Source: Aspidapion aeneum
Lineage: Eukaryota; Arthropoda; Insecta; Coleoptera; Brentidae
DNA length: 64,000 nucleotides
Direction of reading: 5' to 3'
Assembly: GCA_963576565.1 (NCBI GenBank)
Contig: OY755047.1
Location: 31,540,851 to 31,604,850 of the forward strand
Position numbers and translations under genes: made by a program. The notes under the pieces were generated by a model. It was not told the DNA's origin. It ran no database searches and worked only from the letters and a program-made list of their open reading frames with translations. Below are positions 5,137 to 63,915 of the stretch, in pieces; the first letter of the stretch is position 1, and each line of letters starts with the position of its first letter.

Positions 5137-6162
5137 TATTATTTAGTCGGTTTAGAACATTTTTCTACGTTGTCCGACGCCTATTCTCCACCACCTTCGA
5201 TCCTGACAATCATCTTCTGTCAGATTTTTTTGACTCATTGATCTTTGGATTGACTGTTGCCATTCTAGTTTAGGACGCCCTCTTTTTCTGCGCCCTATTG
5301 GTTGCCATTCTAGGACCTGCTTTGGTAATCTTTCGTCGTTCATCGATGATTCGATTCGATTCCCATTCTTTCTTTTATGATCTCATTTCTTATGTGATCT
5401 GTTCTAGATATTCTCATTGATCTTCTTATTGCATCCATTTCGACACTTTCCATTTTTGTTTTGTATTTTTCTGTTACGCGACAAGTCTCTATTCCATACA
5501 ACAGCGTGCTTTTCACCATTGTTTCATATATGTTAAATTTTACATTCTTTTTTATCTCTCTGCTCCATAAAATACTGTTAAGACATCCAATAACCTTTTT
5601 TGCTTTTACTATTCTTTTTTCCAGTTCTTTACAGTCTGTTCCTGTCTTATCAAATGTGACACCCAAGTATACATACTCATTGTATGGAGATATTACTTGT
5701 CCATTGTCTAGTTCTCACTGGATTCGTTTCCAATACATAAGTACTGTGTCTTGTCCACGTTCACTGTTTGTCCCCACTTTTGGTATTCTTCCATTAACTT
5801 TCTCATCATATACTCCATGTCCTCTTTATCATTAGCTACAATTACTTGGTCGTCAGCAAACTGTAGTGTGTATATGGTAAATCGGTCGTTAAGTTGTATT
5901 CCCATGCCGTGCACTTTCCGTTTCCAGTTTTTTAGAGCTACTGCGATATATATTTTAAAAAGGGTTGGAGAAATACAACATCCCTGTCTTAAGCCTTTTG
6001 TTACCAGGAAGTCTTTTGAAAGTCGCTTTCCAATTTTAATTTCAGATTTTGACCCTTTGTATAGTTCTTTTATCGCTTTTATGTATGTATGATTGATATT
6101 AGTCTGCTCTAGCACTGTCCATAGTTTTTCTACTGGAACGGTATCATATGCTTTTTGTAGGT
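5137..6162 (-). pseudogene. LINE reverse transcriptase, C-terminal half
   Basis: This is the 3' part of the RT reading frame. From the 5' side on the minus strand come the end of RT motif A (AYD), a GLRQGCCISPTLF motif, the catalytic FADDQ box (near 5855) and NVDKTQYL. After a frame break there is a C-terminal region with LLYGIETCRV, and after another break GRPKLEW followed by a DRRWWR motif typical of LINE C-termini. Frame changes near 5700 and 5345 make it non-functional. The 5' half is at 8599-9533, displaced by the LTR element. The codon interrupted at the junction closes correctly if 6163-8602 is removed. Confidence 0.88.
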
Positions 6163-6299
6163 TGTAACGAAGTTACTAATTTCTATCTTTGTTAGGTCGG
6201 GGTAATTTAGGTTAAGTTGTTTTACAAGTCTCCTAAAGCATGGGCAGGTCTAATTTGTCGTAATCCATCGGCCGGGAGTAGAAATTATAAGTTATTGAG

Positions 6300-6755
6300 T
6301 CCAGATGCCGTGGGGGATATTCGTAGTTTGTCGGGATCATTCGGAAATGATCGGTTTTCTTTGATCCCCACCTCTGACTTCGTGGGGGTTAGTCGGAGCC
6401 ATTCGGAAATGATCGGCTTTCTTTGGTCCCCACCTCTAATGTCGTAGAAGTTAGTCGGAACCATTCGGAAATACTCGGCTTCCTTCGGTTCCCCACCTCT
6501 AATGTCGTGGGGTTAGTCGGAGCCATTCGGAAATAATCGGCTTTCTTCGGTTCCCCACCTCTAATGTCGTGGGGTTAGTCGGAGCCATTCGGAAAGGATC
6601 GGTTTACTTCGGCCTCCCACCTCTAATGTCGTGGGGTTAGTCGGAGCCATTCGGAAAGGATCGGTTTACTTCGGCCTCCCACCTCTGATTTTGTGGGGGT
6701 TAGTCGGAGCGTTTCGGAAGTGATCGGCTTTCTTTGGCCTCCCACCTCTGAAAAA
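6300..6755. repeat. 62-bp tandem repeat array in the putative U3
   Basis: Seven units recur with near-constant 61-63-bp spacing. The landmark TCGGAAA occurs near 6341, 6403, 6464, 6527, 6589, 6651 and 6713. Each unit holds ATTCGGAAATGATCGG, a pyrimidine stretch with CCCCACCTCT and GTGGGGTTAGTCGGAG. The array stops just before the TATTTAAG box, the place expected for LTR enhancer or insulator repeats. Confidence 0.85.
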
Positions 6756-8110: not shown

Positions 8111-8598
8111 TCCCGGACTAAAGAATCTACATTTTAACTACGACCAAACCGAGTAATAAAAGTGGTATTTGAGTTATAGAATAGCCAACGGACATGTAAA
8201 TCCGTTATATACCGTTTCGTGAAAGCATTATCGAATTGTTCTTTGCTGGAACTTTGAAAGGCATTCAATTGTGTCAAATTAAGACAAAGAAACCGCCTGT
8301 GCTTTGGGAATCCTGTTTAATTTGTTTAGAGTAAGAAAGTTATTAAAATTTGATTCTTGTAGCAAGGTTAGACAAATAAAAGTGGTACATTTTAGTTAAA
8401 TTGCCTAAACATTAATTTTCCAACCATTCCATGAACCCGTTTTCTCGACTGTCTAAAAGCTAGTCGTACTGGCCGGTGGAGGCTCTAAGCTCCCTTATTT
8501 CTTAGAGTGGCGCCCAAGATTCCGTCCGAAAGGGTGAAATATTGAGTGTCAAATGTAAAAGACCGAAGTTTGGCAACCCCGAACTAGGTCCCTTTACA

Positions 8599-9533
8599 AG
8601 GTCCACAAAGGTAACATGAGTCTCTATATTTCTGGCGCTCCTTTTTTCAATTACTTGTTTAAGACAAAAAACATTATCACTACAAGATCTGCCTGCACGA
8701 AACCCACTTTGCTCTTCTTCTTCTTGTTCATGAAAATCCTTCTCTATTAGATCTCTAAGAATCCTACCGTACAATCTACTGAGAGTACTAGTTACTGAAA
8801 TTCCTCTGTAATTGTTGCAATCCAGCTTGTTTCCTTTTTTATGTATTGAGGATATGAATGCAATTTTCCAATCATCAGGTACTGGATGTCCGTTTATGCA
8901 TTGATTGATAAAATATGTGAGATTTTCGATTAGTTTCTCTGATCCATATTTGAGCATTTCAGCATATATTCCTCCAGGTCCGCTAGCTTTTCCGGATTTA
9001 AGCTTTTTAATACTATTTTTTATCATTTCTTTTTCGATGATTACTTCCTCTCCGTGTACTTCTATGTCTCTCCTCGGAGAGGCTGCCAGATATTCGGGTC
9101 TCGTTTCCTGCAGCAGTCCCTTGTAGTGTTCTGTCCATTGTTCTGGTTTGATGATCTGGATGTTTACTTTTTCTTTTGTTGGGTTTTTCACTGTAGAAAT
9201 GAATTTCCATACTTCAGAACTCTGCCTACCTCCTACGTGTGTATTGATATCGTGGCATTTGCGCTCGAACAGTTCATTTTTTTCTGTGCGTATCAAATTT
9301 CTCAGCTGTCTTTTGGTTTCCCTGTAGATTTCTAGGTCTCTTTGTTCTTTAGTACATAGCCATTTCAAGTATGTGCGTTTTTTCTCTTGGACCATTTCCT
9401 GTATTTTTTCCGTCCACCACATCTTCATCATCAGCTTCGATGCTTGCTTCCTTCAAGCTTTTTATTATGTTTGTATATATCTCTTCAAATGAGTGTTCTG
9501 TGTTTATTAATTTTTTATCTAATCTGTTCTGAT
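8599..9533 (-). pseudogene. LINE reverse transcriptase, N-terminal half
   Basis: An open frame of about 280 codons on the minus strand covers the start of the RT domain. It shows GKASGPGGIYAEMLKYG, WKIAFISSIHKKG, NNYRGISVTSTLSRLYGRIL, QSGFRAGRSCSDNVFCLKQV and the beginning of motif A (FVDL), where the LTR element begins. Upstream of 9431 the homology continues to about 9533 in another frame, implying a frameshift near 9420-9440. There is no endonuclease domain, consistent with 5' truncation at insertion. Confidence 0.88.
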
Positions 9534-17821: not shown

Positions 17822-20155
17822 CAGTGGCGTCGCGTGAGGTTTAAAAGTGGCGGTTCTGCAAAGTGGGGAACAAAGACAAATTTTTAAATACGTGTTAAAA
17901 ATAATAAAAACTTACCCAATTTTTAGATTTTGTAAAGTCACATTAATCGAACGTAAAATACAAATTTTAAGTTTTATTTTTAAACCGGTCGAACAATTTG
18001 TTTATTACCACACTTTTAATTTTTAAGGTTTATTATAGTCACTTCTTTTTATTTTTATATACAAGTTCAATACGTCTGTCTTTTTTATTGGCAAAACATT
18101 CAATCACTTTCTCTTTAAAGTTTTCAATTCTATTAATAAACTCACTTTCAATGGATAAAACTGCAAGCACTGTAAGGCGTTCTTCACTCATGGTATTACG
18201 CAAAAATGTTTTTATATGTTTAAGAGTTGAAAAGCTGCGTTCAGCTTCAGCTGTCGTCATTGGGGTAGTAATAATTATCTGTAAAAGTTTTTGAACTTCT
18301 GTAAATGCGTCTTCTAAATTGTTATTAACAATAAACTTTAAAAAGGCAGTAGCTCCTGTCATAGATCTATATTCCTCGCGAGAGTACATAATTGACAGTT
18401 CAGTTTTTAAGCGTTTTTTGTCCAAAATACTGTATGCCTCCGCTGCAATATCCAGTACTTTATCTGGAAAGTCAAATTCATACAAAGAAAATTTTTCTGA
18501 AAAAAATAATGTGGCTGCCACCAAATGACCAGAAAATTCGAACCTATCTTTGGCCACATTGATAATCACGTCACAAACTTCCAAAGCTGCAGCGCGAAGA
18601 TTTTCAATTGACGTTTCTGTTCGTCGGCGTTTTGGAACTGGCTCACTGACTGCTGTATTTAATTCTTTTTCAATTTTATAAACTTCACATTGCTTTATGT
18701 TGTTTATGTTTTTTTCAAAGAAATCAATGCAATTTTTAATTTCAACGGAGTCTGTGTCTCTCTTTTGAAGTTGGTTAAAAAGGATGTCAACATGAGGCAT
18801 AACATATTGAAAAAATGAATTTGGCATCGTGATCAGAAGGACACATAAATCCCCAGAAACGTTCAACAGGGTTAGTTTCTTTGACATACCGCAAGATAAC
18901 AGACATTTGAAACTGCGCTGAAACGTCTGTAGTCTCGTCCGCTATAACCGCGAAAAATGAAGCATCTATAAGTTCTTTTGTTATTTCCTGATAATAAACT
19001 TCCAGCATACACTGTAATAGTTCATTTTGTATTACCTTAGATGTGCCTTTAAATACAGTAGTTCGGTTCGGTTCGGTTCTACTTCAGGTCTAACTCCGCA
19101 GTAAAATTTAAAGGCCCCAAAAAGACGCCAGGATTTTTTGAGTCACTCGTTTCGTCGTGCCCACGTAAAGCTAGCTCAAATGCTCCACAAAATTTAATGC
19201 AATCTATAATTTTCGACAAAATATGTCTATTTTTAGAAACCTGCTCGTTATGCTTATCAATATTGAGCCAGTAAGCATTATCAAGTTGAGCTTGAATATT
19301 ATAGTTACCTAAAAGTCCTAGATGCATTAAGGTTAGGTGTAAGAATAGTCTGTGACTAAACCTTGCCTTATTTCTAATAAAAGTCGATTAAATAAATAAA
19401 TAACATTTAAAATATGTTGTTTACTAGCCTCATGTGATTTTGTCCGATCCGGTAAATGGTTCAAATCGTCAACACCGGAAATAGTCCACTTTGAGTCACC
19501 ACCAAATAACAAACAAGGAAAACAAAATAATTTGTTTTTTACACTGCACCCACAAATCCATTTAAAACGCGTATAAACATCGCGAGAAAATTTTCTTGTA
19601 TAGTTTTTGCCACGACTTTTTCCTCCATACGTTATTTTTAAATCTGGTAAAGGACGACCTTTTTGTTTAACTTTTAACTTATCGTCCAAAGGTAAACTCT
19701 TAAAATCCCGGAGAGTAATGGTTATATCCTCGGTAGTTTCCATGTTTTATTAAAGTCTTTTGTACCACACACCGCACTTACTCAAATAAATATTCACTCA
19801 AAAAAGTACCGTAATACCGTAAATTGAGTCAACACTCAAGTACAAATTTGCAGTTCCCATCTGATTTTAATGTAAACAGAAACAATGTATTATTTTCTCT
19901 ATAAATATATAAACGGGACACTACCCCGAATTTCAAAAATTTTGCATAGCTGCGACGTCAGTTGATTGGTTCTATCCTTTTAATTATATAGTACAATCTG
20001 TATTTATCCGTCCTTTATTCGGGGTAGTTTGATTAGCAGACCCGACAAACTCCAGCGCCACGAGAAGCGCCACGAGAAGAGACCGAAAAGCAAAGAACGT
20101 ATGCAGGCTTGCACCCGATAAGAGCCCCGCAGCCCTTATTGAATAACCGCCACTG
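17822..20155 (-). mobile_element. hAT element with intact ends and 8-bp duplication
   Basis: The 2,334-bp element starts CAGTGGCGTCGCG and ends TAACCGCCACTG. ATACCAAT lies at 17814-17821 and again at 20156-20163, a perfect 8-bp target duplication. It contains a decayed transposase on the minus strand. It is the longest hAT copy in the window; other hAT elements here have the CAGTGGCG terminus but different subterminal sequence. Confidence 0.93.
18039..19743 (-). pseudogene. hAT transposase pseudogene (ZMYM1-like class)
   Basis: Four pieces lie in order on the minus strand. The N-terminal piece (19743-19333) has a WICGCS...LFCFPCLLF zinc-finger motif. The second (19327-19079) has FCGAFELALRGHDE. 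The third (from about 19050 to 18845) has FKGTSK-like sequence, ADETTDVS with a catalytic aspartate, and VERFWGF. The fourth (to 18039) has the hATC dimerisation signature TTPMTTAEAERSFSTLKHIKTFLR. Frames change between pieces. A TTCGG microsatellite at 19064-19078 separates pieces two and three. A large internal part appears deleted near 18850, so later catalytic residues are missing. Not functional. Confidence 0.9.
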
Positions 20156-35100: not shown

Positions 35101-35179
35101 CAAATTGCAAATAATGCAAGGACCTAAAACTATAAACAACAAGTGAAATTAAATAAAAAAAAATAAGAAAAGGTTATCC

Positions 35180-35250
35180 GCATCGGCCGGGGATCGAACC
35201 CGGGATCTCTTGCTATCTAAGCAAACACTCTACCACTGAACTACCGAAGC
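35180..35250 (-). tRNA. tRNA-Gly-like sequence with AGA in the anticodon position
   Basis: The 71-nt minus-strand sequence folds as a cloverleaf. The acceptor stem GCTTCGG/CCGATGC has one mismatch, the D arm contains AGTTCAGTGGTAGAG, the anticodon stem is TTTGC/GCAAG and the T arm CCGGG-TTCGATC-CCCGG is perfect. Length and body resemble tRNA-Gly, but the loop TTAGATA would give AGA, a Ser anticodon, without the long variable arm of tRNA-Ser. Because the surrounding 300 bp is repeated elsewhere, I take it as a repeat-borne tRNA-like element. Confidence 0.6.
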
Positions 35251-35561: not shown

Positions 35562-35628
35562 AGTAGTTCAGGTGTAGAATGTTTGCCTAGATAGCAAGAG
35601 ATTCCGGGTTCGATCCCCGGTCGAAGCA
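35562..35628 (+). tRNA. Partial tRNA-like sequence in a repeat
   Basis: The plus strand keeps AGTTCAGGTGTAGAATG, the TTTGC-CTAGATA-GCAAG anticodon arm and the perfect T arm, but the 5' acceptor strand is replaced by a GAAAGA sequence. It is the same family as 35180-35250 and probably non-functional. Confidence 0.55.
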
Positions 35629-43270: not shown

Positions 43271-43657
43271 CAGTAAATTCAAAAAATAAAACTACATTAT
43301 GTATGTGGGTAGGTATTTATTATAAATAACCCTTTTAAAACTTTATTAAAAGAAAATTAATTATATTTTTATTATATAATTCAACACACTAAATATGTAA
43401 TACCAGTATTATAATTAATCTCTCTTAATAATAAACATGTGTGTTTCTTACATATATTAAACGGACTATAGTTGTTTTCTTTTATTTGCATTCGATCTTT
43501 TCATTGATCGATATTGTTTAGCAGTGTTTTTGCCTGCTTTTGGTTTCTTGTTTCTCTCGTATCTCGGTAGATGGCGCCTCTTGCTATAGTTCGCTCACTA
43601 ATTACATTTAATTAGATACAAAACCGTCTGATTAACTTCGCAAGATTTGTCACATTG

Positions 43658-43719
43658 ACCAGCAGTGTTCTGAGGAGTCCCATAAGGACGAAACGGTTAA
43701 CTGTCAACACTTATTAGGT
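43658..43719 (+). ncRNA. Hammerhead ribozyme, type I (copy 1)
   Basis: All core elements of the family are present. Stem I is AGTGTT (43664-43669) with AACACT (43706-43711). It continues past an internal loop (AGC against TATTA) into ACC/GGT. CTGAGGA (43670-43676) fits CUGANGA. Stem II is GTCC/GGAC with a CATAA loop. GAA is at 43690-43692. Stem III is ACGG/CTGT with a TTAA loop. The cleavage triplet GTC ends at C43705, so predicted self-cleavage is between 43705 and 43706. The open stem I defines type I. The short stem III suggests it may work better as a dimer. Confidence 0.88.
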
Positions 43720-44172
43720 GTCCATTAGATCTTGGACCCCCGTGAGGTTAAGCTTTCAGGCTACCCACGGAAAAATATAAGAGAAACAAAAAACTCCTTT
43801 TTGCCCGATTAGCCACGAAACTTGTTTGATTTTTAAATTCACGGGTACGAAATTCCACGTTTGTTAGTATTATTTGGCTTAAAAATTCCGTTGATTGACG
43901 CTCACTGTCTTGAAGACGGATAAAAATGCAATCTGTGTTGATCCGGCCTGAAAGACAAAGAGCTGTCGTAGGTCACGGACTATAGTTGTTTTCTTTTATT
44001 TGCATTCGATCTTTTCATTGATCGATATTGTATAGCAGTGTTTTTGCCTGCTTTTGGTTTTTTGTTTCTCTCGTATCTCGGTAGATGGCGCCTCTTGCTA
44101 TAGTTCGCTCACTAATTACATTTAATTGGATAAAAAAACCGTCTGATTAACTTCGCAAGATTTGTCACATTG

Positions 44173-44234
44173 ACCAGCAGTGTTCTGAGGAGTCCCATAA
44201 GGACGAAACGGTTAACTGTCAACACTTATTAGGT
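44173..44234 (+). ncRNA. Hammerhead ribozyme, type I (copy 2)
   Basis: Core and stems are identical to copy 1: CTGAGGA at 44185-44191, GUC ending at 44220, stem I strands at 44179-44184 and 44221-44226. Cleavage at copies 1 and 2 would release a 515-nt RNA (43706-44220). Confidence 0.88.
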
Positions 44235-44686
44235 GTCCATTAGATCTTGGACCCCCGTGAGGTTAAGCTTTCAGGCTACCCACGGAAAAATATAAGGGAA
44301 ACAAAAAACTCCTTTTTGCCCGATTAGCCACGAAACTTGTTTGATTTTTAAATTCACGGGTACGAAATTCCACGTTTGTTAGTATTATTTGGCTTAAAAA
44401 TTCCGTTGATTGACCCTCACTGTCTTGAAGACGGGTAAAAATGCAATCTGTGTTGATCCGGCCTGAAAGACAAAGAGCTGTCGTAGGTCACGGACTATAG
44501 TTGTTTTCTTTTATTTGCATTCGATCTTTTCATTGATCGATATTGTATAGCAGTGTTTTTGCCTGCATTTGGTTTTTTGTTTCTCTCGTATCTCGGTAGA
44601 TGGCGCCTCTTGCTATAGTTCGCTCACTAATTACATTTAATTAGATACAAAACCGTCTGATTAACTTCGCAAGATTTGTCACATTG

Positions 44687-44748
44687 ACCAGCAGTGTTCT
44701 GAGGAGTCCCATAAGGACGAAACGGTTAACTGTCAACACTTATTAGGT
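44687..44748 (+). ncRNA. Hammerhead ribozyme, type I (copy 3)
   Basis: The same core: CTGAGGA at 44699-44705, GUC ending at 44734, stem I strands at 44693-44698 and 44735-44740. Cleavage at copies 2 and 3 would release a 514-nt RNA (44221-44734). Confidence 0.88.
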
Positions 44749-44893
44749 GTCCATTAGATCTTGGACCCCCGTGAGGTTAAGCTTTCAGGCTACCCACGGA
44801 AAAATATAAGGGAAATAAAAAACTCCTTTTTGCCCGATTAGCCACGAAACTTGTTTGAGTTTTAAATTCACGGGTACGAAATTCCACGTTTGT

Positions 44894-63378: not shown

Positions 63379-63536
63379 ACGTTTGTTAGTATTTTGTGGC
63401 TCAAAAATTCCGCTGATTGACGCTCATATCTGAAAGTGGGTAAAAACGCCAATCAGCGTTGATCTGATCTGAAAGGCAGTAGTGCTGTCGTAGGTCACGG
63501 ATCGTTTCTTTTTCTTTGCAATCGATCTTTTCATCA

Positions 63537-63612
<76 letters not shown>

Positions 63613-63915
63613 CGGTTTATACTCGCTTCTTCTTGTTCTAGTTTCTCTTGTATCTCCGTAGATGGCGCTTTTTACAAGGGGTTTCTCACTATAGATGTAA
63701 GATGAGAGACAAAACGATTTGATGAATTTCGCAAGGGTGTCACATTGACCAAGCAGTGTTCTCAGGAGTCCCATAAAGACGCAACAGTTAATTGCCAACA
63801 GGTTGTTAGGTGTCCATTAGATCTTGCACCCCCTTTCGAGTTACGCATGAAAAAATATGAGATAAACAAAAACTTCTTTTTACCCAATTTGCCTTGAAAA
63901 CTTATTTGATTTTGG
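63379..63915 (+). repeat. Diverged single copy of the ~515-bp hammerhead repeat
   Basis: It matches the array unit from ACGTTTGTTAGTATT through CTGTCGTAGGTCACGGA, GTAGATGGCGC, and GGTGTCCATTAGATCTTG to about 63915, with many substitutions and a TA microsatellite inserted in the unit's TCGATATTG region. The ribozyme core (63755-63800) is damaged: CTCAGGA instead of CTGAGGA and GCAA instead of GAAA. Confidence 0.85.
63538..63610. repeat. (TA)n microsatellite
   Basis: About 73 bp of AT dinucleotides inside the diverged hammerhead repeat, at the site where array copies read GATCGATATTG. Confidence 0.97.

Follow-up and report, generated by a model that had tools for sequence, protein, structure and literature searches.

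A dispersed 514/515-bp hammerhead repeat of Aspidapion aeneum, best interpreted as a new metazoan non-LTR retrozyme family whose insertions resemble those of Penelope-like elements

The closest described counterparts of the repeat presented here are the metazoan non-LTR retrozymes (Cervera & de la Pena 2020, PMC7229834), which, in the available portions of that account, are short non-coding tandem repeats of low GC content with a type I hammerhead, occurring as many dispersed copies devoid of LTR and ORF, with duplications of more than 4 bp when any are present. The repeat shares these features and differs by its unit size of 514/515 bp, compared to 150-450 bp in the metazoan retrozymes (RNAs of ~170-400 nt), a span which is an observed range and not a definition. 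Head-to-head arms and two alternative 3'-end groups are not described in the accessible part of PMC7229834, and a word search of it found neither "inverted" nor "head-to-head". The pDo500 satellite of Dolichopoda cave crickets, likened here by its description (PMC2837043, seen in part), also possesses a repeat of ~500 bp, a type I-like hammerhead and a G-U pair in stem III, but is described as satellite DNA, without a dispersed insertion anatomy. Plant LTR retrozymes, according to the sections available of PMC7229834 and PMC7761336, are likewise non-autonomous hammerhead elements thought to move via RNA circles; they differ by their type III hammerheads, LTRs with PBS and PPT, 4-bp duplications and Gypsy-type machinery.

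Penelope-like elements (PLEs) are named as candidate movers of metazoan retrozymes in PMC7229834, PMC7761336 and PMC11722881, where, as far as these texts were accessible, the mover is only a suggestion, LINEs or PLEs, drawn from co-occurrence. PLE insertions, in the available part of PMC3846280, consist of a direct and an adjacent inverted pLTR with an 8-10-bp duplication and an optional 31-bp tail at one inverted end; a partial tandem joined by microhomology and an inverted copy, both devoid of duplication, are also reported there. In vitro, a PLE protein cuts and extends both strands, prefers ATT and uses two adjacent internal start sites, matching a tail of 30-40 bp (PMC11167929, in the portions available). 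As far as published descriptions were accessible, the present family resembles the EN+ PLEs in its head-to-head inverted arm, short target duplication, optional tail of ~30-40 bp at one end, tandem tendency and type I hammerhead. It differs from them in a repeat unit without any RT or GIY-YIG ORF and without homology to the fetched PLE families. In addition, PLE hammerheads are minimal forms whereas that of the unit has a 4-bp stem III, and the target duplication measures 10-13 nt here against 8-10 bp in the PLEs of PMC3846280, as far as that source was seen.

The window, i.e., the whole stretch of 64 kb that was analysed, contains at 43462-44893 a succession of 2.8 tandem units, two complete and the third represented by 403 nt, with a period of 514 or 515 bp, organized as follows.

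43462..43975, + strand: unit 1, 514 nt; reference for unit positions
43976..44490, + strand: unit 2, 515 nt; 98.4% identity to unit 1
44491..44893, + strand: unit 3, 403 nt, 3' end missing, stopping one base past site B; 98.5% identity to unit 1
43664..43711, + strand: type I hammerhead motif, copy 1 (RF00163, 24.7 bits, E 0.0035); predicted cleavage after C43705
44179..44226, + strand: type I hammerhead motif, copy 2 (RF00163, 24.7 bits, E 0.0035); predicted cleavage after C44220
44693..44740, + strand: type I hammerhead motif, copy 3 (RF00163, 24.7 bits, E 0.0035); predicted cleavage after C44734

The tandem repeat of ~515 bp announced by the preliminary description is thus real, and so is its claim of an identical, complete type I hammerhead motif in each unit, since the 48 nt (AGTGTT CTGAGGA GTCC CATAA GGAC GAA ACGG TTAA CTGT C AACACT) have the same letters in all three. 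They would form a stem I AGUGUU/AACACU, a stem II GUCC/GGAC and a stem III ACGG/CUGU over UUAA, around the core CUGAGGA and GAA, and the three cleavage positions predicted earlier agree with this placement of the motif. A search with Infernal against Rfam (1701 bases versus 4227 families) returned Hammerhead_1 for each copy, a match beyond chance; an Rfam scan at the gathering score lists no hammerhead because 24.7 bits lies under the curated cut-off of 34. The preliminary description had proposed this very search and had reckoned with a sub-threshold score caused by failing stem pairings: the score does fall below threshold, yet the pairings hold, none of those named being broken in the array. 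Scanned on both strands with a strict motif, the 64 kb yielded the three hammerheads of the array only. The hammerhead is not the minimum-energy fold of the 48-nt core (-8.5 against -9.1 kcal/mol), nor of a 66-nt stretch (-9.1 against -16.9 kcal/mol), and nothing unusual distinguishes it from shuffles. The unit has a GC content of 39.5% and a longest stop-free run of 74 codons; the array contains no ORF of 110 aa and no RT or GIY-YIG coding sequence, so that the unit is not a Penelope-like element itself.

Throughout the 1.286-Gb assembly (149 contigs), a 42-nt hammerhead pattern gave 13,804 matches with up to 3 mismatches and its reversed control none; the genome-wide copy-number check proposed beforehand thus yields more than 10,000 copies of the 42-mer at this tolerance. 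A 28-mer located further on in the unit, upstream of site A (see below), occurs 18,708 times. Of the exact copies on contig C1, the first 100 in the list fall into 63 clusters within 12 Mb, 40 of which hold a single exact copy, and loci usually comprise one to a few units. The 514/515-bp family is dispersed and is not a satellite: long homogeneous arrays at few sites do not occur among these 63 clusters of C1. The exact hammerhead had no match in viral contigs.

Among the copies studied, which were chosen by their likeness to the unit of the window and whose divergence is biased low, the 48 nt of the hammerhead differ by 0.7% per site compared to 2.4% over the whole unit, and 93 out of 120 hammerhead copies are identical. 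A special conservation of the hammerhead is only suggested by these values, because several other 20-nt bins are equally low. An old copy also lies in the window.

63379..63913, + strand: older, diverged copy with a decayed hammerhead core, in three pieces of 77-88% identity; its 3' end lies near site A and an (AT)n run interrupts it

Three old copies were found in all and checked for covariation, with no compensatory change; two have a decayed hammerhead and one (L049) is devoid of the hammerhead part. The most fitting reading of the 514/515-bp repeat is that of a new metazoan non-LTR retrozyme family, and the earlier suggestion that it may belong, as an undescribed member, with the tandem hammerhead repeats and the retrozymes of metazoans is supported by the dispersed loci of one to few units and by the target duplications found at most two-armed loci.

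From the listed matches at least 38 loci were grouped, and letters were obtained for 29 of them, the window included. Depending on the locus, units occur in one orientation or in two arms joined 5'-to-5', with their 3' ends pointing outward: 14 loci are two-armed with both outer ends readable, in three others, also two-armed, one end cannot be read (the fetched stretch cuts L046 and L056, and the second arm of L051 goes no further than unit position 261), 11 show one orientation and one (L054) is cut. The 3' ends fall into two groups, which define two sites in the unit.

43821..43828, + strand: site A, CTTGTTTG, unit positions 360-367; one 3'-end group of insertions elsewhere; a putative start of reverse transcription
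43857..43863, + strand: site B, ACGTTTG, unit positions 396-402; the other 3'-end group; the array of the window stops here (44892/44893)
43802..43847, + strand: 6-bp stem TGCCCG/CGGGTA around site A, predicted in the minimum-energy fold; z-score +1.4, no more stable than shuffles

The ends of the A group follow ..CGAAACTTGTTTG, with the last matched unit position at 359-380, and those of the B group follow ..TTCCACGTTTG, with the last matched position at 402-418, plus 425 in L047, a locus with an uncertain B side owing to a flank similar to the unit. The modal sites of the two groups are 35 nt apart, and neither group is precise to the base, as the ranges show; in L032 the end lies 8 nt short of site A, and in L057 ~16 nt beyond B. 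At the fetched loci these ends are followed by neither poly(A) nor a simple-repeat tail, and the fold of the A/B region is not better than that of shuffles. Genome-wide counts of exact 28-mers (15,031 preceding A, 10,312 in the A-B interval) were considered as evidence of a step at A and dropped, the apparent step being confounded by uneven conservation because the 28-mer further upstream reaches the 18,708 occurrences given above.

All 14 readable two-armed loci combine one outer end at A with the other at B, an outcome expected 6 times in 100,000 if both ends were chosen independently. A second set of loci, none among those fetched, was built on contig C1 by mapping exact 28-mers that precede A or lie between the two sites. 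Its 17 mixed-strand clusters are all head-to-head, and 14 of them pair an A-like end with B, two pair A-like with A-like and one B with B (P 0.006 under independence), bearing in mind that mutated B ends count as A in this set, because an end was termed A-like when it lacked the exact B marker. When four marker lists were pooled over the first 9 Mb of C1, 83 clusters were obtained, of which 22, overlapping the second set, are mixed, and 22/22 are head-to-head. The exceptions to the A/B rule are the three clusters out of 17 in the second set, plus L051. The one-armed loci distribute as six ending at B (the window included), four at A (L037 with a small deletion) and one in between (L045).

A direct repeat of 10-13 nt occurs at the outer ends of 12 out of 15 two-armed loci (the 14 readable ones and L051), its length including microhomology because some of the bases could be the element's own; among 210 control pairings of ends from different loci, only two gave a repeat of 10 nt or more. 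L043 shows, by eye, an 11-nt repeat with one mismatch, and the two-armed L031 has no target duplication. The duplications are mostly AT-rich. At the 11 one-armed loci the repeats reach only 4-7 nt, as in the control; contrary to these, L081, which is not one of the 29 loci, contains a one-armed fragment that seems by eye to be flanked by a 13-nt duplication. At the junctions of the arms (n=17), 1-4 nt of common sequence are found in 11 cases, none in one and extra bases in five.

Concerning the 5' ends, nine of the 11 one-armed loci (L033, L036, L037, L041, L044, L045, L052, L055 and the window at 43462) begin at unit positions 385 to 12, a span of ~28% of its length; among them, L041 and L055 have a common start at unit position 460.

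PLEs are present in the same genome, with at least 91 GIY-YIG matches (150 of 633 candidates scored). Out of 24 PLE loci examined, 23, i.e., all but L066, were sorted by eye into five families, and the six fragments tested all contain Pfam domains, RT in one and GIY-YIG in five. One PLE fragment gave nine hits, of which the two with a named source come from Cylas and Dendroctonus. Hammerhead-like motifs were recognized downstream in PLEs by a loose pattern or by eye; under the strict scan of the first 12 PLE loci, no motif of a PLE's own passes and only the retrozyme copies inside L065 do. Copies of the commonest PLE family stop, by eye, at two places ~33-34 nt apart, and a 6-bp stem can be drawn by eye around the first end site both in this family (GAACCA/TGGTTC) and in the retrozyme (TGCCCG/CGGGTA). 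Compared at low stringency with the fetched PLE families, the unit gave only pieces at E 0.01-0.5, apart from the insertions in L065 and L081.

The family thus displays the Penelope-type features: two 3'-end groups ~35 nt apart, head-to-head arms with a tail at one end, and a short duplication. Because its insertions have the anatomy published for PLEs, the 514/515-bp repeat is likely a non-LTR retrozyme moved in trans by a PLE enzyme, a reading to which we assign a probability of roughly 0.6. In such a cycle the array would be transcribed, and the hammerheads would cut the RNA into monomers of ~514 nt, to be closed into circles by a host ligase, as the motif and the published retrozymes suggest. 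A GIY-YIG/RT protein would then make a staggered cut in mostly AT-rich DNA, leaving 3' overhangs of ~12 nt, in keeping with the duplications of 10-13 bp. Each of the two 3' ends would prime reverse transcription at an internal position of the RNA, in most cases A for one end and B for the other; the array ends observed at these sites point to such starts. Travel round the circle may produce the tandem units, as the variants common to a locus indicate, and the two cDNAs would finally be joined 5'-to-5', often through 1-4 nt of common sequence. Where one arm only is made, the other junction would usually be devoid of duplication, and the array of the window would be a one-armed insertion of this kind, ending at B. 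Some properties of the PLE protein in vitro, namely the equal use of the start sites by both strands, starts that are not homologous to the cut DNA and the dispensable cleavage by the hammerhead (PMC11167929, as far as available), would weigh against this cycle.

More generally, animal retrozymes may be RNA-circle parasites of PLEs. The circle would offer both start sites in a mimic of the PLE start structure, on which a PLE dimer would place the two ends of a 12-nt staggered cut, one at A and the other at B; both cDNAs would circle before joining, and the rule of different start sites would be general to PLE integration and legible here in thousands of insertions. We offer this extension tentatively, at somewhat short of even odds.

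The nature of the template is the point on which a first alternative departs, since the repeat could also be moved by PLEs from a long uncut multimeric RNA, ribozyme cleavage and circles being irrelevant to insertion. According to the accessible part of PMC11167929, PLE ribozyme mutants insert normally in vitro and unprocessed RNA is the main substrate. No array 5' end lies within 5 nt of a predicted cleavage site at 28 loci, as an uncut template would also give. The unit variants bear upon this question. Over 75 near-full units, the mean difference amounts to 1.3% within a locus versus 2.0% between loci, and the alleles that vary within a locus and also occur in at least two other loci number 39, compared to a mean of 186 in 500 shuffles (144-235). 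With gapped columns left out, ten such alleles are found in at least two other loci against 164 private ones, and the trend persists when partial units are included (69 versus 244). Private alleles fixed in a locus were observed five times and never in 500 shuffles, three of them in L040 (14 near-full units, both arms) and two in L034 (4 units). The own arms of a locus are the closest pair in only 4 out of 15 two-armed loci; few sites distinguish the loci. Units of a locus therefore carry alleles specific to that locus and rarely alleles common to others, which speaks against the uncut template, with a weight reduced by the fact that private alleles are fixed in two of the eight loci with three or more near-full units, the other six having none, and that a homogeneous array could yield such an RNA. 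Variants and 5' ends together are better explained by a single unit copied over and over, for instance from a circle, than by a run-off from a cut linear monomer, and are also compatible with a homogeneous uncut multimer; on balance, we consider the uncut template unlikely.

A LINE-type reverse transcriptase could also have moved the retrozyme, the two-armed loci being then the product of ordinary twin priming. Fragments of such reverse transcriptases are present, in the window as well, and duplications of ~12 nt suit LINEs too. In twin priming, only one of the two outer ends corresponds to the 3' end of the RNA, whereas here both outer ends belong to group A or B in 14/14 readable loci, and these ends carry no poly(A) or simple-repeat 3' tail, which leaves the LINE explanation with little probability.

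Another possibility is that the unit represents the pLTR of a further PLE family, in the form of an internally deleted derivative multiplying with that family, given that PLEs carry hammerheads in their pLTRs, lie in tandem and abound in this genome. As no likeness to the unit beyond chance was seen, two inserted copies aside, in the 23 assigned PLE loci, which come from a capped list of candidates that leaves room for further families, and as the unit has no ORF, its longest stop-free run being the 74 codons already mentioned, such an origin appears very improbable.

Finally, amplification at the DNA level, as a satellite or a DNA transposon with an incidental hammerhead, to which the tandem units, the similar outward ends TAACAAACG and TCAAACAAG and the duplications flanking many loci could be ascribed, is hardly credible and was set aside, as was LINE twin priming, on the evidence against each, which here consists of the dispersed loci (40/63 clusters with a single exact copy among the first 100 listed on C1), the 11/29 one-armed loci with variable 5' ends and unit number, a duplication length varying from 10 to 13 nt, and the origin of both ends in one internal region.

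For the proposed retrozyme moved in trans by a PLE enzyme, the known part is the kind of element, represented here by a new family, and the new part, as far as the literature was seen, is an insertion anatomy that ties a retrozyme to the PLE mechanism, with the A/B rule at many loci. No report of PLE-type ends for a retrozyme was found in the titles and abstract openings searched, and a prior publication is possible. The DNA anatomy of the family points to PLEs as the mover, its more than 10,000 copies allow the A/B rule to be tested, and the same test is applicable to the retrozymes of coral, mussel and axolotl. If PLE enzymes do copy the repeat, the open question of who moves animal retrozymes would receive an answer. 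The family also bears on PLE integration, with its two strands and two start sites, and on RNA circles as a template.

Some minor features complete this picture. Among the 24 PLE loci, two contain a retrozyme insertion within the PLE coding region (L065:1-1460 and L081:1783-1866), and the commonest PLE family (L060-L064, L067, L068 and L070) adjoins (TA)n and (CA)n microsatellites. The window further contains two reverse transcriptase (RVT_1) fragments at 5708-6172 (-) and 8502-9452 (-), a C-terminal fragment of a hAT transposase, with relatives of mixed origin, at 18039-18941 (-), and a 62-bp tandem repeat at 6338-6749 (6.6 copies, 89% matches). Two tRNA-like matches in opposite orientation, 35179-35250 (-) and 35564-35620 (+), with 52.8 and 31.5 bits, respectively, are possibly tRNA-derived repeats.
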